From the NCBI RefSeq assembly GCF_001514065.1, contig NZ_KQ948435.1, positions 186,001 to 250,000 on the forward strand: 64,000 nt of DNA. Reading direction: 5' to 3'. Position 1 is the first letter of the stretch. Every line of letters starts with the position of its first letter. A program made the translations under genes and the position numbers. This document shows positions 28,188 to 47,192 of the stretch, piece after piece. The stretch comes from Streptomyces antibioticus (GTDB lineage Bacteria; Actinomycetota; Actinomycetes; Streptomycetales; Streptomycetaceae). The notes under the pieces are model-generated. The model saw nothing but the letters and a program-made list of their open reading frames with translations, was not told where the DNA came from and did not search any database.

Positions 28188-30209
28188 TCAGAGGGTGGTG
28201 TACGCGGCGGGTGCCCCTTCGTCCGCCAGCGTGGTGTACGGCAGCATGACCAGCGCGATGGCCCCGTGCTCCGCCCGGGCGGGCCGCAACTGGACCCGGA
28301 TGCCGTGCCGTTCGGCCAGCCTGCCGACCACGAAGAGCCCCATGCGCCGGGAGATCGCGGCGTCCACGGTCGGCGGGTCGGCGAGTTTGCGGTTGAGCTC
28401 GGCGAAGTCCTGTGGGGTCAGGCCGACTCCCTCGTCGTGGATCTCCACCATGGCGCGCCCGTCCGGGAGTTGGGCCGCGGTGACCCGGACCGGGCTACGC
28501 GGCGGGGAGAACGCGGTCGCGTTCTCCAGGAGTTCGGCCAGCAGATGTACGAGGTCGCTCGCGGCGCGGCCGTGGACGAGCGTCTCGGGGATGCCGGAGA
28601 TCTGGACCCGCTCGTACTGCTCGACCTCGGACGCGGCGGCCCGCACGGTGTCGATCAGCGGCATCGGCTGATCCCAGCGGTGCCGGGGTTCCTCCCCGGC
28701 GAGGACGAGCAGGTTCTCGCCGTTGCGGCGCATACGCGTCGCCAGGTGGTCCAGTCGGAAGAGGTTCTCCAGCTGCTCGGGGTCCGCCTCGTTCTTCTCC
28801 AGGTCGGTGAGCAGATGCAGCTGTCCCTCGACGAGCGCCTCCGACCGGCGCGAGAGGCTGGTGAAGATGGCGCTGATGTTGCCGCGCAACAGGGCCTGTT
28901 CGGCGGCGAGCTGGACGGCCTCGCGGTGGACCTGGTCGAAGGCCCTGGCGACCTCGCCGATCTCGTCCCTGGTGTCGATGGGGATGGGGGCGACGCGGGT
29001 GTTCACCGGATGCGGACGCGGCTGGGACAACTTCTCGACCAGTGCGGGCAGTTGCGTCTGGGCGATGTCCAGAGCGGCCCCGCGCAGCCGGCGCATGCTG
29101 CCGGTCATCGAGCGCGCGACCCACATGGCCAGCAGGAAGGCCAGCACGACCGCGGCCACGACGACCGCGGAGTTGACGATCGCGTCCCGCCGGGCGCCGT
29201 CGGAGATGTCCTCGGCCTTGGCGAGCGCGGTGTCCGAGAGCTCTACCTCGACGCTGCGGTAGGCGTCGAAGGCGAGCGTCGAGGCGGTGAAGAACGACTC
29301 CCGGGTGATGCCCGCGGCCGCCAGCTTCTCGGCCGTGGCGCCGGACGAGATCCGCTCGATCATCTCCGCCAGCGGCGGCGGGGCGACGAACGGCTTCCCG
29401 GCGTCCGCGGCCTGCTGCGCCGCCTTGGCCGCGAGGGCCTGGCCCTTCTTCTGGGCGGTGTCCATGGCCCGTTCGAGGCGGTCCATGTCCGCGCTGGTGC
29501 CGGCGCCGGCGAACTCCTGGAGCGCGACCTGCTGAAGGTAGGCGTAGGAGCGGAACGTGGCGAGCTGGACGTCCAGTTCACCGTCCGCGAGGTCGTCGCG
29601 GTCCTGGACGAGGACGCGCTGGCCGATGGCCCGGGTCAGCGACTCGGCGGCCTGGGTCAGGGAGAGGGCGTACAGGGTGCGGCCGAAGCTCGCCTGGTTG
29701 TTGCTGCCGAACCCCAGCTCGTTGGAGAGCTCCATGAGGGGATGCTGGATCAGGTGGTACTTCTCCTCGGTCTGGACGCCCGGGAGTTTGTCCGTGAAGG
29801 CGTTCGCGCGCAGTTCCGTCAGCGCCTTCTCGCCGGCGCGGACCGCCGCGACGCGCTTGAGCAGGCGCGTCGAGCGCGGCATGTTCGCCACCGCCCTGTC
29901 GAAGTCCTCGCGGTCCTGGTCGGTGATCGCGCGGGCCTTGGTGATCGCGCTGTCCGACCGCTTCCCCTTGAGGAGCGGGACGACCGAGACGTCCCGCTCG
30001 TTGATGACGTCACTGGCGTATTTGTTGGCCGTCTGCACCAGTTGGGCGACCCGCACGGCGTCTTCGGCGTCCTGCACCGTGTCGATCGAGCGTTTCACCC
30101 GGAAGGCACCGAGGGACAGCGCGACGAGCACGGGGATGAGAAGGACGACGTACAGGCGCTTCGCCATGCGCCAGTTCCGCATGGAGGGGGCCCGGCTTGC
30201 TGTTCTCAC
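28188..30209 (-). CDS. CvnA-like sensor kinase with nitrate/nitrite-sensing-type domain
   Basis: A 673-residue membrane sensor. Helix 1 (about residues 18-36, RLYVVLLIPVLVALSLGAF) precedes a 270-residue extracellular all-helical region resembling the NIT domain (AVRVAQLVQTANKYASDVINERDVSVVPLLKGK). Helix 2 is AIVNSAVVVAAVVLAFLLAMWVA (about 340-362), followed by a HAMP-like linker. A degenerate phospho-acceptor helix (LENLFRLDHLATRMRRNGENLLVLAG) and a HATPase_c domain (LLAELLENATAFSPP, MVEIHDEGVGLTP, GLFVVGRLAERHGIRVQL) complete it. This is the layout of CvnA proteins of Streptomyces conservons. The roadblock, DUF742 and GTPase genes (cvnB-D) that should follow are absent; a 15-base repeat array abuts the stop instead. 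GTG 30209 is the likely start. Confidence 0.87.
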   Translation of the reverse strand: MRTASRAPSMRNWRMAKRLYVVLLIPVLVALSLGAFRVKRSIDTVQDAEDAVRVAQLVQTANKYASDVINERDVSVVPLLKGKRSDSAITKARAITDQDREDFDRAVANMPRSTRLLKRVAAVRAGEKALTELRANAFTDKLPGVQTEEKYHLIQHPLMELSNELGFGSNNQASFGRTLYALSLTQAAESLTRAIGQRVLVQDRDDLADGELDVQLATFRSYAYLQQVALQEFAGAGTSADMDRLERAMDTAQKKGQALAAKAAQQAADAGKPFVAPPPLAEMIERISSGATAEKLAAAGITRESFFTASTLAFDAYRSVEVELSDTALAKAEDISDGARRDAIVNSAVVVAAVVLAFLLAMWVARSMTGSMRRLRGAALDIAQTQLPALVEKLSQPRPHPVNTRVAPIPIDTRDEIGEVARAFDQVHREAVQLAAEQALLRGNISAIFTSLSRRSEALVEGQLHLLTDLEKNEADPEQLENLFRLDHLATRMRRNGENLLVLAGEEPRHRWDQPMPLIDTVRAAASEVEQYERVQISGIPETLVHGRAASDLVHLLAELLENATAFSPPRSPVRVTAAQLPDGRAMVEIHDEGVGLTPQDFAELNRKLADPPTVDAAISRRMGLFVVGRLAERHGIRVQLRPARAEHGAIALVMLPYTTLADEGAPAAYTTL

Positions 30210-32777: not shown

Positions 32778-32880
32778 GGCCTGGTGGCGTGCGACGGGTG
32801 TGAAAACCCTGTGGAAGCGGTGTCGGTGGTGCCGTTTATGCTGCACCGAACGATCAGGCGGGGCCAGGGGAGGGCACGGC

Positions 32881-33870
32881 ATGTTGGGGAAGCTGTTCGG
32901 GAGAAGCGCGGCGTCGGCGGAGGATCCGCACGCGCTTCCCGTCCCGCGCAGGCCGCGGGGCGGGGTGTACAAACTGGAGGCCCTCGGGGACGCGCGGGTG
33001 CTCGCGCTGGTCGAGGCGGCCCGCGCGCGTGACTGGACGGCGGTCAAGACCGCCCTGGCCCCCTTCGACCTCGGCCACGAGCAGGCGGTCCTGGGGCAAC
33101 TGTCCGACGTGGACGGTCTGGAGGAGTGGATCGTCAAGGCCGCCGACGAGGACAAGGGCGACGACGAACTCCGGGCCACCGCCCTGCTGATATCGGGTGC
33201 GCGCCACATCTCCTGGGGCTGGGACGCACGCACCTCCGCCCGTGCCGTGGACGTCAGCCGCGACCAGTGGCAGACCTTCTACGAGCGGCTGAACATCGCC
33301 GAGGAACACCTGCTGGAGGCCGCCGAGCTGCGACCCGACTGGGTCACGCCCTGGCGTCAACTGCTCACCTCCGGACGCGGCATGTCCCTCGACGACCACG
33401 TCCAGGACGCCCGGCTCGCGGCCGGTCTGCGCCGCGACCCGCTGAACCTGGACATCCACCTGGAATGGGTGTCGCACCTCCAGCCCCGCTGGGGCGGAAA
33501 GCCGGGCCAGGCCCTGGAGTTCGCCCAGAAGGCCTTCGCCGCCGCCCCCGACGGGCACCGGCTCGGCTGTGTCGTCGCCATGGCCCGGATCGAGGAGTGG
33601 GTGGAGTCCGACCGCCGCGACTGCCTCCAGGACCCGCGGATCCGCACCGAGTTGAGAGAGGCCGCGGAGCGCAGCATCCTGCACCACGCCTACGAGCGCC
33701 GCCTGGGCTGGCAGGGCGACTACAACATCTTCGCCATGGCCCTCGCGCTGGCCGGCAGCAGCACGGCCTCCAATGTCTTCCGCGAGCTGGAGGGCGTGTA
33801 CACCGAGTGGCCGTGGGTCTTCATGTCGGACCCGCAGAAGGTGTACTCCCGCCTGCGCAAGGCCTTCTGA
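32881..33870 (+). CDS. Helical-repeat (TPR-like) protein of unknown function
   Basis: A 329-residue soluble protein with no signal or membrane segment. After a basic start (MLGKLFGRSAAS) it is almost wholly helical, with TPR-like pairs such as AEEHLLEAAELRPDWVTPWRQLL, DARLAAGLRRDPLNLDIHLEWVSHLQP and ALEFAQKAFAAAPDGHRLGCVVAMARIEEW. I do not recognise a named family. It precedes the HSP90-family gene by 147 bases on the same strand, and a second TPR-like gene follows HSP90. All three may form a chaperone module, but the gap holds repeats of this gene's own 3' end rather than a tight junction. Confidence 0.72.
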   Translation: MLGKLFGRSAASAEDPHALPVPRRPRGGVYKLEALGDARVLALVEAARARDWTAVKTALAPFDLGHEQAVLGQLSDVDGLEEWIVKAADEDKGDDELRATALLISGARHISWGWDARTSARAVDVSRDQWQTFYERLNIAEEHLLEAAELRPDWVTPWRQLLTSGRGMSLDDHVQDARLAAGLRRDPLNLDIHLEWVSHLQPRWGGKPGQALEFAQKAFAAAPDGHRLGCVVAMARIEEWVESDRRDCLQDPRIRTELREAAERSILHHAYERRLGWQGDYNIFAMALALAGSSTASNVFRELEGVYTEWPWVFMSDPQKVYSRLRKAF

Positions 33871-33975
33871 GCCACCGGCCACGCAGGAAGGGCACACCCG
33901 CCTGCGCAAGGCCTTCTTGGCCACCGCGAAGGCGAACAGGCACCTCCGCAAGGCCCCCTGAGTCACAGGCCACCG
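33850..33975. repeat. Degenerate repeats of the 3' end of the preceding gene
   Basis: CGCCTGCGCAAGGCCTTCTG with GCCACCG after it (33850-33877) contains the stop of the gene at 32881-33870. It recurs at 33899-33926 as CGCCTGCGCAAGGCCTTCTT plus GGCCACCG. It recurs more weakly from 33941 as CACCTCCGCAAGGCCCCCTG plus AGTCACAGGCCACC. The copies lie in the gap before the HSP90 gene. Confidence 0.85.
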
Positions 33976-34017
33976 GCCACCGCCCACCTCCGCCGTTCCT
34001 TCACCCCGGACTGACCC

Positions 34018-35856
34018 ATGCCCCTGCGTCACAACGCCGCCGACCCCGCCGCCACCGACCGCACCTTCCAGGTCGACCTCCGCGGACTCGTCGACCTGCT
34101 CTCCCACCACCTCTACTCCAGCCCCCGCGTCTACCTGCGCGAACTGATGCAGAACGCGGTCGACGCCCTCACCGCACGGCACGCCATCGAGCCCGCCGGC
34201 GGCTTCGGCATCCGCCTGTACGCGGACGGCACGACGGTCCGCGTCGAGGACGACGGCGTCGGTCTCACCGAGGCCGACGTGCACACCTTCCTCGCCACGA
34301 TCGGCCGCAGCAGCAAGCGCGCCGACCAGGTCGCCGAGCAACGCGCCGACTTCATCGGCCAGTTCGGCATCGGCCTGCTCTCCTGCTTCCTGGTCGCCGA
34401 CGAGATCCACGTCGTCAGCCGCTCCGCCCGCACCCCCGACGCCCCCGCCGTGGAATGGCGCGGCCGCGGCGACGGCAGCTACACCGTCCGCACCCTGCCC
34501 GCCTCCGCCCGCCCCCGGCCCGGCACGACCGTCACGCTGACGCCGCGCGCCGACGCGGACGAGTGGACCCGCCCCACCCAAGTGCACGCGCTGGCCCGCC
34601 ACTTCGGCTCCCTGCTGCGCCACCCGGTGACCTTCCACGACGGCTCGGGCGGCGCGGCCGTACCGGTGAACCCCGAGCCCGCGCCCTGGGCGAGCACGTA
34701 CCCCACCCCGGGAGCCCGCTCCCGCGCGCTGGCCGCGTACGGCGAAGAGGTCTTCGGATTCACGCCGTTGGACACCATCGAGCTCGACCTCCCGGCCGTG
34801 GGCCTCAAGGGCATCGCCTGTGTGCTGCCCGAGGCGGTGCCCGCCGGGCGGCGCCACGGCCACCGCGTGCACGTCAAGGGCATGCTGCTGTCCGAGCAGG
34901 CCGAGGAGATCCTGCCCGAGTGGGCCTTCTTCGTCCGCTGTGTCGTCGACGCCGAGAGCCTGCGCCCGACCGCGTCCCGCGAGGCGCTCTACGAGGACGA
35001 CACCCTCGCCGCCGTCCGCGACGCCCTCGCCGAACGGCTGCGCGAGTGGATCGCCCGCGCCGCCGCCAGCGACCCCGAACTGCTCGGCCGCTTCCTCCAG
35101 GCCCACCACCTGGCCGTGAAGTCCCTCGCCGTGCACGACGACGAGATCCTGCAGATGCTGCTGCCGTGGCTGCCGTTCGAGACCACCGCCGGGCACTGCA
35201 CCCTCGACGAGTTCGCCCGCACCCACCGCACCGTCCTCGTGACGTCCAGCGTCGAGGAGTTCCGCCAGGTCGCGGCCATCGCCTCGGCCGCCGGACTCGG
35301 TGTCGTCAACGGCGGCTACACCTACGACCGTCAACTGGTCCACCGGCTGCCCGAGATCAGGCCCGAGGTCACCGTCGCCGACCTCGACCCGGCCACCCTC
35401 ACCGCCCACCTCGACCCCGTCGACCGGGAGACGGAACTGGCCGCCGCGGCCTATCTGGCCCAGGCCCGCGACGCCCTCGCCGTCTTCGACTGCGACGTCG
35501 CCCTGCGCACCTTCCAGCCCGCGTCCGCCCCGGCGCTCCTCGTCGACAGCCGCGAGGCCCGGCACGAACGCACCCGCTCCCAGCTCGCCCGCGAGCAGGA
35601 GGGCGGCCTGTGGGGCGACATCCTCGGCGCCCTGCGCCAGGAGGCGCCGCGCGCCCAGCTGATCCTCAACCAGCTCAACCCGCTGGTCCGCACCGCCGTC
35701 ACCATCGACGAACCCGAACTGGCCCGCACCAGCGCCGAAGCCCTCTACGGCCAGGCCGCGATGCTGTCCCGGCGCCCGCTGCGGCCCGCCGAGTCGAGCC
35801 TCATCAACCGCTCCTTCCTCGACCTCCTCGCCCACGCCCTCCGCAAGGACAGCTGA
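34018..35856 (+). CDS. HSP90-family molecular chaperone (divergent HtpG-like)
   Basis: A 612-residue GHKL ATPase chaperone. The N-terminal ATP site is intact: ELMQNAVDAL (E42, N46, D49), VEDDGVGL (D79, G82), TIGRSSKRADQ lid segment and IGQFGIGLLSCFLVADEI (114-131). The middle domain has the catalytic-loop arginine motif RPTASREAL (about residues 320-328). The C-terminal region is shorter and unlike HtpG, ending FLDLLAHALRKDS with no MEEVD tail. It is clearly more diverged than canonical HtpG, so it is probably a second, dedicated Hsp90. It sits two bases upstream of a 979-residue TPR-like gene, a pairing that echoes eukaryotic Hsp90 and its TPR co-chaperones. Its clients are unknown. Confidence 0.92.
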   Translation: MPLRHNAADPAATDRTFQVDLRGLVDLLSHHLYSSPRVYLRELMQNAVDALTARHAIEPAGGFGIRLYADGTTVRVEDDGVGLTEADVHTFLATIGRSSKRADQVAEQRADFIGQFGIGLLSCFLVADEIHVVSRSARTPDAPAVEWRGRGDGSYTVRTLPASARPRPGTTVTLTPRADADEWTRPTQVHALARHFGSLLRHPVTFHDGSGGAAVPVNPEPAPWASTYPTPGARSRALAAYGEEVFGFTPLDTIELDLPAVGLKGIACVLPEAVPAGRRHGHRVHVKGMLLSEQAEEILPEWAFFVRCVVDAESLRPTASREALYEDDTLAAVRDALAERLREWIARAAASDPELLGRFLQAHHLAVKSLAVHDDEILQMLLPWLPFETTAGHCTLDEFARTHRTVLVTSSVEEFRQVAAIASAAGLGVVNGGYTYDRQLVHRLPEIRPEVTVADLDPATLTAHLDPVDRETELAAAAYLAQARDALAVFDCDVALRTFQPASAPALLVDSREARHERTRSQLAREQEGGLWGDILGALRQEAPRAQLILNQLNPLVRTAVTIDEPELARTSAEALYGQAAMLSRRPLRPAESSLINRSFLDLLAHALRKDS

Positions 35857-35858
35857 CG

Positions 35859-38798
35859 ATGACGACCGCACCCCAGCCCCAGAGCACGGACGAGCTGTAC
35901 CAGGCGCTCCAGGAGAACGACCGGCGCCCCTACGGCCGCACCCGCACCGTCACCGCCGAGGAACTCGTAGACGCCGCCGAGCAGTTCGGCGAGCCCGGCC
36001 CGCTCATCGACGCGCTCCTCGAACTCCAGGAGGCGTACACCTACGGCTCCGAACCCCGTAAGTCCCCTGTCGTCTTCGCGCGCCTGCTCACCCTCTTCGA
36101 CGAGCAGCCCGACGTCTTCGACGAGCGCCTGCGCCACCAGCTGTTCTGGCGGTTCAAGTGGGTGGCCCATGCCCTGCGCCAGCTCCCCGAGATCCCGCTG
36201 ACCAGCCTGCGCCAGTGGCTCACGGAGATGCGCGAGCGGTACGAGAAGGCCGACCTCGGCCTCCAGCCGTACTACGGACAGGCGTACCAACTCGCCGCGC
36301 ACGTAGGGGAGGACACCGCCCTCGCCTACGACCTCTGGGCGGCCCGCCCCCGCACCCGGCTGAGCGACTGCGAGGCCTGCGAGACCTGCCAGCGCGCCCA
36401 CTACCTGCTCCGGGCGGGCGACGACGAAGGGGCCCTGCGCGCCTTCGAGCCGGTCCTCGCCGGGAAGGAGTCCTGCAAGGAGGAGCCCGCCCGCTCCGCC
36501 TCGTACGCGCTGCTGCCGCTGCTGCGCACCGGCGACACCGACCGCGCCCGCGCGCTGCACCTCACCGGCTACCGCGCCTGCCGCCGCAACCCCTCGATGT
36601 CCGAAGAGGCCGGCCGGCACCTGGAGTTCTGCGCGCTCACCGGCAACGAGGCACGCGGCCTGGAACTGCTCGCCGAGAACCGGAACCTCTTCGACGAGGT
36701 CGACTCGCCGCTGGACCAACTCGGCTTCCTCACCGGTGTGGAGGTCCTCCTCCAGCGTGTCGAGGCCCTCGGCCACGGCGACCTGCCCGCCGCCGGATAC
36801 CCGGGCCGCACCTGGACGGTGGCCGGGCTGCGCGCCGAGGTGCGCGGCCGCGCCGACGACCTCGCCGCCCGCTTCGACGCCCGCAACGGGACCACCACCC
36901 ACGCCGACCACCGCAGGGCCCGCCTCGACAGGGCCCCGCTGCTGGAGCGACTCGAACTGACCCTGCGCACGCGGGAGCTGGACGACGTGGCCCAGGCCGC
37001 CCCGGTAGCGGCGCCCGCCACCCCGGCGGCACCCGCCGTCCCCGAGTCCCTGCCCGAACTCATCCTCCGGGCAAGGGCGTTGGACGAGGTGGGACACCCG
37101 GACGCACAGACCTGCTGGGCCCGCCTGCGCACACTCGTCGCCGACCCCGGCTACAGCCACCCCGACGACCCGGCCGTGGGCCCGCTCGCCCGCCTGCGCG
37201 CGGACCTGCTGGCCGAAGAAGCCCACCGGGCGGGCGTCAAGGAGGAGTACGCCGACTCCGCCGCCCTCCACGAGGAGGCCGCGGCCCTGTACGACGACGC
37301 CGGCGAACCGGCCGACGCCGCCGTATCCCGCGCCTGCGCGCTGCTCGCCACCGCCGAGATCCCCCCGCAGGGCGAGGACGCCGCCGAGGTGCGGGTCGCC
37401 GGGCTGACCGACGCCCACGCCGCCATGGTCCGGCTCCACGAGGAGACGCCCGACCTCGCTCCGTTCCAGGAGGCCCGACTGCTGCGGCTGCGGGCCACCA
37501 CGCTCGCCGTACGCCTCCAGACGTCGGGGAACGAGGAGCACATCGCGCCGGTCCACGCCGAGATCGACCTGCTGCACACGTTCGCCACCCGGCACGGGCT
37601 CGACGGGCAGATCTCCGGGGCGCTCCTGCTGCGGGCCAGCACCCACGCCGTCTCCGGCGACCTGCCCACCGCGGTCACCGAGATCGACGCCCTTCTCCGC
37701 CTGCTGAAGGAGCACGGCCCCGCCTGGCATCTGCCGCGAACGCTCGGGCTGCGCGGCCGGCTCCAGCTCGGCCTCCGGGACGCCGAGGCCGCGTACGCGG
37801 ACCTGAGCGAGGGCCTGCGGCTGGCCGCCGACTGGCCGGCCGACACCGTCGACACCACCCGGCTCCTCGGCGACCTGGCCGAGACCTGCATGCGTCTGGG
37901 CCGCCCCGAGGAGGCCCTGCGGCACCTGACGCGCTCGGCCGAGGCGGACCTGCGCCGCGGCAGCCGGACGGACGCCTTCTGCTCCTACAGCAACGCGGCC
38001 CAGCTCAGCCTCGACCTGGGCCGCGTGGAGGACTGCATCGCGCTGCTCGACTCCCTGCTGATCGAACCGGACGTGGTCTCCGGCGAGTTGGACGACCGGC
38101 TCGTCGCCCAGCTGCGACTGACCCGCGCCCGCGCGCTGCGCACGGGGGAGGACCTCAAGGCGGCCACGGCCGAGTTCGTCGCCCTCGCGGCCGAGTCGGC
38201 GGGCTGGGACGACGACCCGGGCAGCCACGCCATGATCGCCGCGGAGACGGCCGTACTCCTCGGCGAGTCCGGCGAGTTCGACCAGGCGCGTGCGGTCGCG
38301 GACCAGGCACTCGCCGCCCACGCCAAGGCGCCGCGCTACGAGATGCTCAGCAACTGCCTGCGCGAACTGGCCCGCCTCCAGGCCCAGCAGCAGGGCGCCG
38401 ACGGTCTCGCCGACGCCCGCGCCTTTCTCGCCGACGCCGGCCGGGTCGCCGACGAGGCCCGCGCCGCCCGCTACGAGGCCCACGGCCGCTCCCTGGACAG
38501 CGCCCTGGCCTACGAGCACGGCCGGATCAACGCCTACGCCGGCGAGTACGAGGACGCGCTGATCGCCCTGGACAAGACCCTCGCCCTGCTCGGCGAGCCG
38601 GGCCAGGACCAGGACCACGCCGGGGAGTGGGCCGAGAGTGTTCGCCTCGCCGGCGCCGTCGAGGGCCTCTACCTGGAACGCCCCGCCCCTGCCCTCACCC
38701 GCCTCGACGCGGCGATCACCCGCCTGACCGCCCTGGGCCACACCGAGGAGACGCAGTCCCTCACCGCCCTGGCGGCCCGCCTGCGCGACGAGGCGTGA
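35859..38798 (+). CDS. Large TPR-like repeat protein coupled to HSP90
   Basis: A 979-residue soluble protein built of helical repeats along almost its whole length. Clear TPR-like pairs include ALLLRASTHAVSGDLPTAVTEIDALLRLL, LAETCMRLGRPEEALRHLTRSAEADL, NAAQLSLDLGRVEDCIALLDSLL and YEHGRINAYAGEYEDALIALDKTL. Near residue 170 is a cysteine cluster, CEACETCQRAHYLL, with another cysteine at ESCKEE, a possible zinc or redox site. The middle has an Ala/Pro-rich linker (AAPVAAPATPAAPAVPESL). It lacks catalytic or DNA-binding domains. It starts two bases after the HSP90 stop and ends at a strong hairpin. A co-chaperone or client-docking role is inferred from that coupling. Confidence 0.85.
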   Translation: MTTAPQPQSTDELYQALQENDRRPYGRTRTVTAEELVDAAEQFGEPGPLIDALLELQEAYTYGSEPRKSPVVFARLLTLFDEQPDVFDERLRHQLFWRFKWVAHALRQLPEIPLTSLRQWLTEMRERYEKADLGLQPYYGQAYQLAAHVGEDTALAYDLWAARPRTRLSDCEACETCQRAHYLLRAGDDEGALRAFEPVLAGKESCKEEPARSASYALLPLLRTGDTDRARALHLTGYRACRRNPSMSEEAGRHLEFCALTGNEARGLELLAENRNLFDEVDSPLDQLGFLTGVEVLLQRVEALGHGDLPAAGYPGRTWTVAGLRAEVRGRADDLAARFDARNGTTTHADHRRARLDRAPLLERLELTLRTRELDDVAQAAPVAAPATPAAPAVPESLPELILRARALDEVGHPDAQTCWARLRTLVADPGYSHPDDPAVGPLARLRADLLAEEAHRAGVKEEYADSAALHEEAAALYDDAGEPADAAVSRACALLATAEIPPQGEDAAEVRVAGLTDAHAAMVRLHEETPDLAPFQEARLLRLRATTLAVRLQTSGNEEHIAPVHAEIDLLHTFATRHGLDGQISGALLLRASTHAVSGDLPTAVTEIDALLRLLKEHGPAWHLPRTLGLRGRLQLGLRDAEAAYADLSEGLRLAADWPADTVDTTRLLGDLAETCMRLGRPEEALRHLTRSAEADLRRGSRTDAFCSYSNAAQLSLDLGRVEDCIALLDSLLIEPDVVSGELDDRLVAQLRLTRARALRTGEDLKAATAEFVALAAESAGWDDDPGSHAMIAAETAVLLGESGEFDQARAVADQALAAHAKAPRYEMLSNCLRELARLQAQQQGADGLADARAFLADAGRVADEARAARYEAHGRSLDSALAYEHGRINAYAGEYEDALIALDKTLALLGEPGQDQDHAGEWAESVRLAGAVEGLYLERPAPALTRLDAAITRLTALGHTEETQSLTALAARLRDEA

Positions 38799-38802
38799 CA
38801 CA

Positions 38803-38835
38803 CCGGTGCCGGGGCCACATCCGCCCCGGCACCGG
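38803..38835 (+). terminator. Hairpin terminator of the HSP90-TPR operon
   Basis: A 13-base perfect stem, CCGGTGCCGGGGC with GCCCCGGCACCGG, and a 7-base loop, five bases after the TPR gene stop. There is no T tract, as for many Streptomyces terminators. It separates the module from the convergent MFS gene. Confidence 0.85.
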
Positions 38836-38878
38836 AATCCCCTCCGCGTGCGGAGTCCTGACGGACAGAGGGCCCCGC

Positions 38879-43998: not shown

Positions 43999-46020
43999 AT
44001 GGACGTTAAAATCGTGCAGGTAAAAATTCACCCTGCCATTGGTGTCGCCCGGGTCGGCAACAGTAAAGAAGCACCCTTCATCGGCCCGGAATCACCGGAC
44101 CAGAAACCCGCGGACGCCGGCGCGTACAAGGACGCTTCCGGGGCGATCCGGAGGCAGGCCGCCCGCTTCCGGGTATACGGCTACAACGCCGCGGGAGAGG
44201 TCGTACGGGAGCTGAAGCCGGGCGAAGGGGGTGTTTCCGAGATTCAGTGGACCGTGCACCTGGCCAACAAGAAGGCCGCCTGGTACCAGTTCCATCTGCC
44301 GCTGGACATTCCCGAGGGCAAGGCGCTCGCGCCGGAGCAGTACGGCCTGCGGAACGCCGACGTCACGGGCGCCAACCGGAAGAAGCTGGTCATCGACCCC
44401 GGAAGCCGCACCGTTCACGGCTCGATGACCGAGACGCAGAAATTCGATACCGGCAAGATCATGGACAAGGCGGTATATCTCGGAGAGATTTCCACCAAAT
44501 CCGACGGCCGCCTGCTGGTGCTCGGCGGAAGAGGAAATTCCGCCTCCTACAAGAACAAGCCGATCACCGGAGTCACGAACAACGACACCTGGTACGACGA
44601 CGTGTCCGACGGCCCGGTCACGGCGAAGGTCCGTATCGACGGCACCGATCTCACCGCCACCCCTGCCTGGGTCGTGGTGGGACCTCCCCATTACGCCCCT
44701 GGCGTGAAATCCGTCCGCACCCTCTACGACCTGCTTTTCGATGTTTTCGTCAAGGCCGGTTCGCTGACCCGCCCGTCGCAGATCTCGTTCGCCGACCATA
44801 TTGAACCGATACTGCGCCGGTTCTGCGATCTGCAATGGGTCAACCATGGCTTCGCAACGCAGTTCGGCTGGAACGGCCCCAACTACTTCCTCTCCCCTCA
44901 GATGCGGAAGCGGCTCGCCGATCCGTCCCCACGCAACCGGGAACTGCGCCGCCAGACGTACGTCTCCCTGCGCGACTACGACCGCGACGGCACGTCCCCG
45001 GTGCCGTGGCCGTGGCTCTACGGCGACGCCATGGCCAGCAAGCCCAAGTCCGTGCGTCAGCACAGCAAACTGTCCCCGACCCAGGACTGGATGCTGAGCC
45101 GTTGGGCCGACGGCGCCTTCCAGGCCGGACCGCTTCGGCCCTCCCGACCGAACGTGGACGCCGCCCCCGTCGCCGAGCAGCCGGGACTGCTGGACCGGGC
45201 TGCCCTGGAGAGCTGCGCCGCCGACGCGTTCCACCCGGGGATCGAAGTCACCTGGCCGATCAGGACCCCGAGCATGTACAGCGCGCCCTTCCGCATCAAG
45301 CACCGATCCCCGAACACCGCGGAACCCGACTACGGGCCCACCCTCACCCCCCAGGAGGCGACCGCCGCGAACGGCCCGCTGTTCGCACAGGGGCCCGGCG
45401 ACCTCACCCGCTGGATGGCCGCCCCCTGGCAGACGGACACCGCGAGCTGCCGCTCCGGCTACGAGGTGCTGGCCAACCTCGGCCCCCGCTACAGCCCGTA
45501 CCTTCCGACCTTCTGGCCCGCCCAGGTACCGAACCACGTGCTGAAGCTCGAGGACTTCGAGAAGGTCAACGCGCCGTCGGCCGACGCCGACGACAGCGCC
45601 CGGGAGGAGGCGTTCGAGCGGCGGGCGACCTGGCTGCGCGGGCTCATGGGCGATATGAACGCGCAGCGCACACAGATGATCAAGGACTGGCCGAAGCTCG
45701 GCATCGTCGAGGTGCGCGACTACACCGTGGGCGACGGCAGGTTCCCCGCACGGATACAGGTCGAATCGCGCCCGGCAGCCCCGCTCGACCAGGCACTGGA
45801 CACGGCGAACCTCGTCAACCTCCAGGTACCCGAGGCGGGTCCGTCCGTGCGGGCCGCAGCGGCCGGAACCCGGCCCACCGACAGGCTCGCCCCCGAGACC
45901 GTCGAGGCCGACCACGTGGCACAGGCGGTCAGGGCGGCGGCGCAGGCGACCGGCTACTCCGAGGAGGAGATCGCGGCCGGATACCTGGAGCGACTCGACC
46001 CGTTCCGCGAGAACCAGTGA
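43999..46020 (+). CDS. LodA/GoxA-type quinoprotein (CTQ) amino-acid oxidase
   Basis: A 673-residue oxidase of the LodA family. These enzymes deaminate an amino acid (lysine or glycine in known members) to an oxo-acid, ammonia and H2O2, with a cysteine tryptophylquinone cofactor made from their own residues. The start KIHPAIGVARVGNS is the family signature. The cofactor pair is C406 in ESCAADAFHPGIE and probably W477 in MAAPWQTDTASC (W472 is an alternative). Further conserved parts are TATPAWVVVGPPHYAPG and LVNLQVPEAG. No signal peptide is visible, though family members can be secreted by other routes. The GGAAGG site lies 7 bases before ATG 43999. It is coupled by GTGA overlap to the flavoprotein that would mature it. 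The H2O2 produced can be antimicrobial. Confidence 0.92.
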   Translation: MDVKIVQVKIHPAIGVARVGNSKEAPFIGPESPDQKPADAGAYKDASGAIRRQAARFRVYGYNAAGEVVRELKPGEGGVSEIQWTVHLANKKAAWYQFHLPLDIPEGKALAPEQYGLRNADVTGANRKKLVIDPGSRTVHGSMTETQKFDTGKIMDKAVYLGEISTKSDGRLLVLGGRGNSASYKNKPITGVTNNDTWYDDVSDGPVTAKVRIDGTDLTATPAWVVVGPPHYAPGVKSVRTLYDLLFDVFVKAGSLTRPSQISFADHIEPILRRFCDLQWVNHGFATQFGWNGPNYFLSPQMRKRLADPSPRNRELRRQTYVSLRDYDRDGTSPVPWPWLYGDAMASKPKSVRQHSKLSPTQDWMLSRWADGAFQAGPLRPSRPNVDAAPVAEQPGLLDRAALESCAADAFHPGIEVTWPIRTPSMYSAPFRIKHRSPNTAEPDYGPTLTPQEATAANGPLFAQGPGDLTRWMAAPWQTDTASCRSGYEVLANLGPRYSPYLPTFWPAQVPNHVLKLEDFEKVNAPSADADDSAREEAFERRATWLRGLMGDMNAQRTQMIKDWPKLGIVEVRDYTVGDGRFPARIQVESRPAAPLDQALDTANLVNLQVPEAGPSVRAAAAGTRPTDRLAPETVEADHVAQAVRAAAQATGYSEEEIAAGYLERLDPFRENQ

Positions 46021-47192
46021 GCGCCGATTCCGCATCGGAAGGCGCGGAAACGTACGACGTGGTGGTGGCGGGCGGCGGCCCGGCCGGCGCCGCCGCCGCG
46101 ATCACCCTCGCCCGGGCCGGCCGTACGGTCCTGCTGGCGGATGCCGGCACCGGGCCGCCGAAGATCGGCGAGACCCTCGTCCCCGCCGCACGGGTCCTGC
46201 TGGGTGACCTCGGCGTCGCCGACCATGTCCTCGGGTCCGGCCATCTGCCCTGCTACGGGAGCCTCTCGGCATGGGGTTCGGCCGACTTGCACGCCGTGGA
46301 CTTCATCAACGATCCGCACGGCCACGGCTGGCATCTCGACCGGCGGCTCTTCGACCGTCGACTGCGCGACGCCTCCCGCGCGGCGGGAGCCGAGGTCGCC
46401 GAGGGCACGGCCGTACGCGGCACGACCCGGAGGCCGGAGGGCGGTTGGACCCTGGCTCTGCGCCGCGGGACGGGCCCAGCCGGTGATCCTGGGGCGGGTG
46501 GCGAGCGCACGGTGTGCTGCCGCTGGGTGATCGACGCCACCGGCCGCGCTGCCGCGATCGCCGTCCGGCACGGGGCCCGGCGGTGGGTCCGGGACCGGCT
46601 CACAGCCCTTTACGCGCACCTGGAGACGGACCCGCGGGACACCGACCGCCGCTCCCTCGTCGAATCAGACGAAGACGGCTGGTGGTACACCGCCCCACAG
46701 CCCTCCGGCGGGCGCCTCGTCGCCTACTTCACCGACACCGACCTGTCTGCCGCCCCGTACACCGCGCGCCACTTCCACCGACGGTTGTCGGCCACCAGGC
46801 ACGTGTCCCGGTGGACCCACAGGCACGGGCCCCCGCCTGCGCCACCAGTCGCGCCACGCCGGGCCGCTGCGCACACAGCGCACCTGGACCGGGTGTACGG
46901 GGACGGCTGGACCGCCGCCGGGGACGCGGCGATCGCCTTCGACCCGCTCTCCTCCCAGGGCGTCCTCACCGCCCTCTACACCGGGATGAGCGCGGGCCTG
47001 GCCGTCGACGCCCACCTGAGTCGTGTGCATCGCGGCGCGGACTCCGGCCTCGCCGCCTATGCGCACGAGGTCGAGGCCGCGCGGACTGCGTATCTGCGGG
47101 GCCACCGACTCGTCCACGCCCAGGAAGTCCGCTGGACCCACCACCCCTTCTGGGCACGGCGCCTGGCCGACCTGCCCACATCCCCCTTCTGA
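46017..47192 (+). CDS. LodB-type FAD protein for CTQ maturation
   Basis: A 391-residue flavoprotein: FAD-binding TYDVVVAGGGPAGAAAAITLARAGRTVLLAD, GWHLDRRLFDRRLRDASRAAG, WVIDATGRAAAIAVRHGA and GDAAIAFDPLSSQGVLTALYTGM, the pattern of halogenase/geranylgeranyl-reductase-like flavoproteins and of LodB. In known lodAB operons the LodB partner is required to hydroxylate the tryptophan that becomes the quinone cofactor, and is specific to its LodA. GTG 46017 overlaps the LodA stop. It is followed by 750 bases without an intact gene, so the operon probably consists of these two genes. Confidence 0.9.
   Translation: MSADSASEGAETYDVVVAGGGPAGAAAAITLARAGRTVLLADAGTGPPKIGETLVPAARVLLGDLGVADHVLGSGHLPCYGSLSAWGSADLHAVDFINDPHGHGWHLDRRLFDRRLRDASRAAGAEVAEGTAVRGTTRRPEGGWTLALRRGTGPAGDPGAGGERTVCCRWVIDATGRAAAIAVRHGARRWVRDRLTALYAHLETDPRDTDRRSLVESDEDGWWYTAPQPSGGRLVAYFTDTDLSAAPYTARHFHRRLSATRHVSRWTHRHGPPPAPPVAPRRAAAHTAHLDRVYGDGWTAAGDAAIAFDPLSSQGVLTALYTGMSAGLAVDAHLSRVHRGADSGLAAYAHEVEAARTAYLRGHRLVHAQEVRWTHHPFWARRLADLPTSPF

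Follow-up and report, generated by a model that had tools for sequence, protein, structure and literature searches.

A PRK14083-type HSP90 gene of Streptomyces antibioticus and the conserved partner gene that adjoins it

Within the window, the 64,000-nucleotide stretch of Streptomyces antibioticus DNA analyzed here, a divergent HSP90-family gene is followed almost immediately by the gene for a large TPR-like protein, and the two are neighbors across the class and in another phylum. Our main reading, which we put at about 50%, is that the genes would encode a dedicated bacterial HSP90 machine in which the partner would engage the HSP90 through a constant N-terminal domain, with specificity supplied by a variable solenoid. 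Bacterial HSP90 is usually described without the co-chaperones that steer eukaryotic Hsp90; the retention of the pair in distant bacteria suggests dedicated, unstudied bacterial HSP90 helpers. The HSP90 family itself is already known and named by NCBI (NCBIfam equivalog NF010683/PRK14083, "HSP90 family protein", an entry that fits the window protein full length and names an HSP90 alone). What the literature searched does not describe is the pair and the partner domain. The features under discussion are as follows.

32800 to 32844, plus strand: promoter-like conserved block from a DNA alignment, containing TATGCTGC, with TATGCT at 32837-32842 as the likely -10 element
32881 to 33870, plus strand: upstream gene P0001, 329 aa, of no known family, accompanying only the window-type HSP90 pair
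34018 to 35856, plus strand: P0002, 612 aa, HSP90-family ATPase of the PRK14083 type
35859 to 38798, plus strand: P0003, the partner, 979 aa, with its start codon 2 nt past the HSP90 stop
35859 to 36980, plus strand: N-terminal domain of the partner (residues 1-374), whose conservation extends across phyla; recognized by an HMM trained on six Streptomyces sequences
36369 to 36476, plus strand: codons of partner Cys171 and Cys174 (CxxC) through Cys206
37089 to 38795, plus strand: partner C-terminal half, residues 411-979, with weak TPR repeats, lineage-specific
38803 to 38835, plus strand: 13-bp GC-rich hairpin between the partner gene and a convergent MFS gene, the likely end of the transcription unit

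P0002 is an HSP90-family protein of the PRK14083 type and not a canonical HtpG. It matches NF010683 at 830.5 bits (cut-off 455) over residues 13-611 and reaches 186.2 bits with the canonical HtpG model NF003555, below that model's cut-off of 371; a phmmer comparison with TRAP1 gave E 1.3e-36, and identity to the canonical HtpG of the same genome is 26% over 412 aligned positions. The two types share their superfamily and ATP-site motifs. Every ATP-site residue named in the preliminary description was located where it had been placed, with E42, N46, and D49 in RELMQNAVDA (from residue 41), DDGVGL from 78, and GQFGIG at 114; the middle-domain SRE follows at 320. When positions are equated by eye, the HSP90-superfamily residues in the accessible part of Chen et al. 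2006 (PMC1525184, Table 4: Y, REL, N, D, G..G, GQFG, G, P, and SRE) correspond in P0002 to LYS 32, REL 41, QN 45, D49, DDG 78, GQFG 114, PGT 168, LPEW 299, and SRE 320. That table, as far as accessible, lists no HTPG signature. Its motifs and family suggest that P0002 would work as an ATPase clamp, with ATP hydrolysis and dimerization predicted.

The C-terminal tail of P0002 reads AHALRKDS, in agreement with the earlier remark that a MEEVD tail is absent, and EEVD occurs in the last five residues of none of 52 extracted homologs. In eukaryotes, the MEEVD tail of Hsp90 is bound by the TPR clamp of co-chaperones. The bacterial pair is alike in logic only, as an HSP90 with a TPR-like helper; unlike the eukaryotic system with its MEEVD and TPR clamp, it has no EEVD, and the conserved region of its partner is a cysteine domain with no recognizable TPR clamp.

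The partner gene begins two bases after the HSP90 gene, as had been claimed, with TGA-CG-ATG read at the junction of the two genes. "Welded", the word chosen in the preliminary description, holds for genetic coupling but not for the proteins, which are encoded by two separate genes. The description of the 979-residue protein as TPR-like holds only weakly: the best Pfam match is TPR_12 over residues 666-724, at 24.2 bits against a gathering score of 30.1, and the other TPR models also fall below cut-off. No scanned partner protein exceeded a Pfam or NCBIfam cut-off except one Listeria copy, marginally, with the generic TPR_8 (26.1 versus 25.7). A PDB profile search with the partner domain retrieved only a designed helical protein (E 0.0023). 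The closest named relative of P0003 is from S. justiciae, at 94% identity.

The partner consists of a constant N-domain and a divergent C-terminal half. Among the four lineages compared, using at most 15 pairs per comparison and only partners of 801-1099 aa, N-domain identity was 0.32-0.50 versus 0.25-0.27 for shuffled sequences. The C-terminal halves were at shuffled level (mean 0.31 versus 0.30 for window-type against core lineage, 15 pairs), except between the recG-side (core) and third lineages, at 0.40 versus 0.30.

The adjacency of HSP90 and partner holds across the class. The first loci came from a phylum sample of 396 genomes, 12 of which were over the NF010683 cut-off; the HSP90 sample proper, drawn blind to the partner from 394 genomes of the class, comprised all NF010683 matches over cut-off, which amounted to 54 genes from 46 genomes. 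A partner profile covering the first 375 residues and trained on six Streptomyces sequences identified the domain in the next gene at 53 of 54 HSP90 loci (47/48 without the training set). The gap between the two genes was measured by script at 52 loci and lay between -14 and +12 nt in 48 of them. The sole exception, G325, has the lowest-scoring HSP90 of the 54 and is followed, with a 4-nt overlap, by an unrelated 297-residue open reading frame. As a control, 21 of 71 canonical HtpG genes (20 chosen plus that of the genome itself) were inspected over ~5-7 kb on each side where the contig allowed, and the partner domain was near none of them. Chance adjacency is ruled out by these two counts. 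Selection from the partner side, where 80 loci were kept of 121, gave the same picture: of the 78 loci with enough contig upstream, 77 have HSP90 sequence immediately before the partner, 5 of the 77 contigs starting inside the HSP90 gene. The remaining locus, from a single species (L076), has lost HSP90 and the first ~232 partner residues together.

Canonical htpG, about which the preliminary description had also asked, is present in this genome too. It was found in 71 of the 394 sampled genomes and 13 of the 46 that bear the pair (counted from listings), figures in which absence is a soft count because most genome searches scored only the top three to five candidates per genome. As htpG accompanies the pair in some genomes and not in others, the pair does not require htpG, nor is it a simple replacement for it.

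The S. antibioticus genome encodes three HSP90s. Besides canonical HtpG and the window copy, there is one next to recG that has a partner of its own; relative to the window pair, this second pair has diverged to 61% identity in the HSP90 and 44% in the partner N-domain. The sample includes 40 genomes of the same genus; 26 of them have one or more pairs, including seven with two. The Streptomyces pairs fall into three lineages in different neighborhoods: the recG-side lineage (recG visible at 15 of 16 loci), the window type (an HSP90 clade of ten), and a third type, five of whose seven loci share another neighborhood. The HSP90 tree and the partner tree each recover the labeled members of these lineages as single groups; because labels were assigned from neighborhood and sequence similarity, the test lies in the agreement of the two trees and not in the existence of each group. 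One unlabeled locus (L123) falls with the window type, and a recG-side locus with a split HSP90 (L170) was left out of both trees. Pairwise distances of HSP90 and partner correlate at 0.94 over 54 loci, a value that partly reflects shared ancestry. Exchange of partners between lineages was not seen, as both trees place each lineage as one group; the paralogous pairs are co-inherited, each lineage with its cognate partner.

Records in plasmid, phage, and E. coli collections extend the pair beyond Actinomycetota. In a Listeria record (L131), an HSP90 gene (34% identity) is followed by two tandem, stand-alone partner domains of 324 and 320 residues, which the Streptomyces-trained profile matches at E 8.2e-40 and 1.9e-41, and in Paenibacillus a 353-residue partner (E 2.1e-41) directly follows the HSP90. 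These Bacillota partners consist of the N-domain only. When the plasmid collection was searched with the Listeria HSP90, the best six full-length hits (two from Listeria, three from Streptomyces, and one from Paenibacillus) all had the partner domain directly downstream by coordinates, and no other neighbor shared between the Bacillota and Streptomyces loci was found. The Listeria record, filed as "plasmid 2" (NZ_LR134399.1), looks like a piece of chromosome (fri, trmL, queG). The Listeria genes read here are presumably lmo0942 and lmo0941, judging by their position beside fri. In the accessible parts of the respective papers, lmo0942 is listed among Listeria heat-shock genes (PMC10393277), and lmo0941 appears as a hypothetical protein with selection signals in Listeria (PMC6901971).

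More distant pairs occur in Gammaproteobacteria. Related HSP90-like proteins of Pseudomonas aeruginosa, Xanthomonas vasicola, and Salmonella score 277-293 bits, below the NF010683 cut-off, and are followed after 36, 24, and 2 nt, respectively, by a gene for a weakly TPR-like protein of 764-774 residues. Of 5,426 E. coli genomes, 149 have the Salmonella-type pair, at ~77% identity; in the one genome opened, E. coli FDAARGOS_144 (L185, 8001-12144), it sits between fdhD and yiiG. There the genes are annotated merely as "ATP-binding protein" and "hypothetical protein". The Streptomyces-trained profile does not match the gammaproteobacterial partners. Profile-profile alignment with hhalign gave 44.8% (E 2.2e-4) with CxxC aligned and 19.8% with the Pseudomonas sequence alone; an unrelated TPR protein and the P0001 family, aligned for comparison, reached 0.5% and 0.2%, respectively. 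Homology of these partners to the Streptomyces domain is thus uncertain.

Phage-associated sequences also contain the genes. Both proteins have matches among the PHROGs families (phrog_32952, E 1e-86; phrog_34905, E 4e-23), the HSP90 turns up in two short Listeria records of a phage collection, and the pair lies on a 6.6-kb contig without annotation that is filed as "Bacteriophage sp." (L182). Against these, an IMG/VR scan with P0002 alone returned two loci with partial N-terminal matches, and a phage origin is not favored.

The dependence between the two genes is one-sided in this sample, HSP90 hardly ever occurring without the partner and the partner sometimes without HSP90. The same 394 genomes contain 59 partner-domain genes (60 matches, two in one open frame), of which 53 are HSP90 neighbors and six are not. 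At a recG-side locus of one genome (G743; L206, 6992-9820), the HSP90 is gone and an intact partner gene is kept. Two partner genes without HSP90 (G204 and G554, loci L209 and L211) have a YbjN gene upstream (Pfam E 2.5e-26 and 2.5e-28), and the G554 partner has a YbjN domain of its own at the C-terminus (4.6e-17). An HSP90-free homolog in Actinomyces oris (L171) also follows YbjN genes, one scoring above the Pfam cut-off and one beneath it. A further partner gene without HSP90 (G653) precedes genes for a cyclic-nucleotide-binding protein and an adenylate-cyclase-like protein, and those of G729 and G171 lie in other settings. A Priestia homolog of the partner and a Nonomuraea homolog of the gammaproteobacterial partner likewise have no HSP90 beside them. 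Partner proteins can therefore exist alone or beside YbjN. YbjN, in the accessible part of its description (PMC5398634), is another chaperone-like fold; it accompanies three of the partner-domain genes without HSP90 and has no match in the three window proteins, whose unit has an HSP90 instead. In a few loci the HSP90 gene is broken while the partner stays, at least in part: at L078, the HSP90 flanked by P0001 and the partner is missing roughly residues 35-485, and another HSP90, beside its partner, is split between frames (G659, L170). An HSP90 adjoining a partner gene at G571:C1:312527-314356 is listed with a stop. These three cases may be sequencing or assembly errors.

This asymmetry is the best argument for an alternative that we consider rather unlikely but the most serious of those weighed: the partner might be no co-chaperone but a dedicated client, a large TPR/thiol signaling or scaffold protein that would depend on an HSP90 of its own for folding or switching, as receptors depend on Hsp90. 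The G743 locus that kept only its partner would fit a client, and the lineage-specific C-terminal half would in that case serve the partner as an output region. However, the Listeria and Paenibacillus partners extend little beyond the N-domain, leaving no obvious output region, and G743 retains another HSP90 pair elsewhere.

The three cysteines of the N-domain invite a second alternative. Among 30 diverse N-domains chosen from Actinomycetota and Bacillota, Cys171, Cys174, and Cys206 are each present in 28, and all three are invariant in an eight-row alignment; L164 and Priestia are the exceptions, Priestia having a cysteine one column off position 206. On this conservation, and on the aligned CxxC of the gammaproteobacterial partner, one could propose a redox- or metal-sensing stress switch, in which the CxxC...C domain would sense thiol or metal state and gate the holdase or ATPase activity of the HSP90. 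We hold this to be improbable, as the cysteine-free L164 partner still adjoins its HSP90 and the sites could be purely structural. Least probable by far is an incidental operon, whose genes would share a promoter although their products do not work together. In its favor, neighboring genes need not encode interacting proteins, and tree agreement partly reflects shared species history. Against it, the pair persists in different Streptomyces neighborhoods and other families, as well as in a second phylum with no other shared neighbor, and is missing from all 21 canonical htpG loci inspected.

In the dedicated-machine reading, the PRK14083-lineage HSP90 would act as the ATPase clamp, and the three-cysteine N-domain would bind it as a constant coupling subunit, with no need of MEEVD. 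The cysteines would probably hold a metal ion or serve as a thiol switch. The variable TPR-like solenoid at the C-terminus would set specificity, either selecting what the HSP90 acts on or belonging to it; the near-absence of HSP90s without a partner, set beside partners without HSP90, means that the partner may itself be the client. Streptomyces has at least three lineages of the unit, each with its cognate partner retained, and P0001 is added in the window type. More tentatively, and with the odds somewhat against it, the pairs could represent a cross-phylum HSP90 class with an obligate co-chaperone: a three-cysteine, TPR-like subunit with MEEVD-free docking, a metal or thiol site, and an exchangeable specificity half. 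Such a class would have arisen independently of the eukaryotic HSP90-co-chaperone system, to which it would be the bacterial equivalent, and would extend from Streptomyces and Listeria to E. coli. A near-invariably linked partner whose cysteine domain is conserved would provide bacteria with a dedicated helper for HSP90 and would allow HSP90 specificity to be tested with just two genes; where one cell has paralogous pairs, two in this genome, swapping partner halves offers a built-in specificity test.

A two- or three-protein machine had been envisaged at the outset, and the two-protein version has fared better: the pair is adjacent almost throughout the class, recurs in Bacillota, and has a related gammaproteobacterial pair. 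P0001, by comparison, is confined to the window-type lineage, so the general unit is one of two proteins. A P0001 homolog lies upstream in 10 of 10 window-type clade members and in none of 44 others, and is present in 71 of the 72 partner-selected loci whose contig extends far enough; an S. globosus plasmid carries a 41% identical homolog at the same place. The preliminary description called this gene helical-repeat, a label that found no backing: P0001 matched no Pfam family at E<=0.1, reached a chance-level 14.6 bits against an NCBIfam cut-off of 125, and retrieved nothing below E 0.5 in a PDB profile search. Nor was any relation to the partner domain seen (hhalign 0.2%).

The three window genes are probably carried on one transcript, presumably starting from the conserved block 5' of P0001, where TATGCTGC is invariant in the DNA alignment of 16 chosen window-type loci. 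We infer a promoter from this conservation; a sigma-70 consensus scan listed none at the block. Upstream of the HSP90 start, conservation is limited to a short stretch at the start codon. At the other end, the "strong terminator" of the preliminary description proved to be a stable 13-bp hairpin that lacks a T-run, which is why the consensus terminator scan passed it over. The region 38796-38860 folds at -38.6 kcal/mol (z -4.75), with none of 200 shuffles as stable, and the convergent gene beyond it matches MFS_1; the hairpin is the likely end of the transcription unit.

Roles in stress and defense had also been suggested, and neither gained ground. Using consensus sequences, we found one HspR-type operator (HAIR) match, at 1986, a chance-level result with 0.69 expected, and no HrcA-type operator (CIRCE), and heat-shock operators were set aside. 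In PADLOC, only the N-terminal ATPase part of P0002 matched, to TmtA and REase models (best 1.8e-9), and P0001 and P0003 had no match. Because these matches are confined to a shared ATPase domain, a known anti-phage defense system was rejected.

Related HSP90s have been described before. In the accessible part of Chen et al. 2006 (PMC1525184), S. coelicolor has two HTPG copies of different groups, the second of 615 aa, and HTPG Groups A and C have members in Actinobacteria, Firmicutes, and gamma-proteobacteria; no partner gene is mentioned there for Group C or for the second S. coelicolor HTPG. Another Streptomyces HSP90 studied biochemically, S. hygroscopicus HtpG, is described as the only HSP90-family protein of its strain; geldanamycin is not bound by it (Millson et al. 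2011, as excerpted in PMC3603443 and PMC4060131). Residues 88 and 92 were tried for assigning its type, and canonical and PRK14083-type proteins overlap at 92. The literature searched, with subscription journals and bioRxiv mostly outside it, yielded no description of the pair or the partner domain.

Several further loci deserve mention as observations in their own right. A Pseudanabaena plasmid (L175, 3932-8795) encodes an 877-aa HSP90-like protein scoring 383 bits with NF010683, below cut-off, whose C-terminus has a weak, below-cut-off match to the CAP12/Pycsar TIR; a TIR-domain gene adjoins it and a TPR gene is nearby, making an HSP90-TIR defense fusion possible. Within the window, the minus strand at 28188-30209 encodes a nitrate/nitrite-sensing NIT-HAMP-HATPase sensor protein. 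At 43999-47189, a LodA-type L-lysine epsilon-oxidase gene (LodA_N 1.5e-87, LodA_C 2.3e-41) is followed by a gene for an FAD-dependent oxidoreductase, which we take to be LodB-like, so that the two would likely form a LodA/LodB-like pair.
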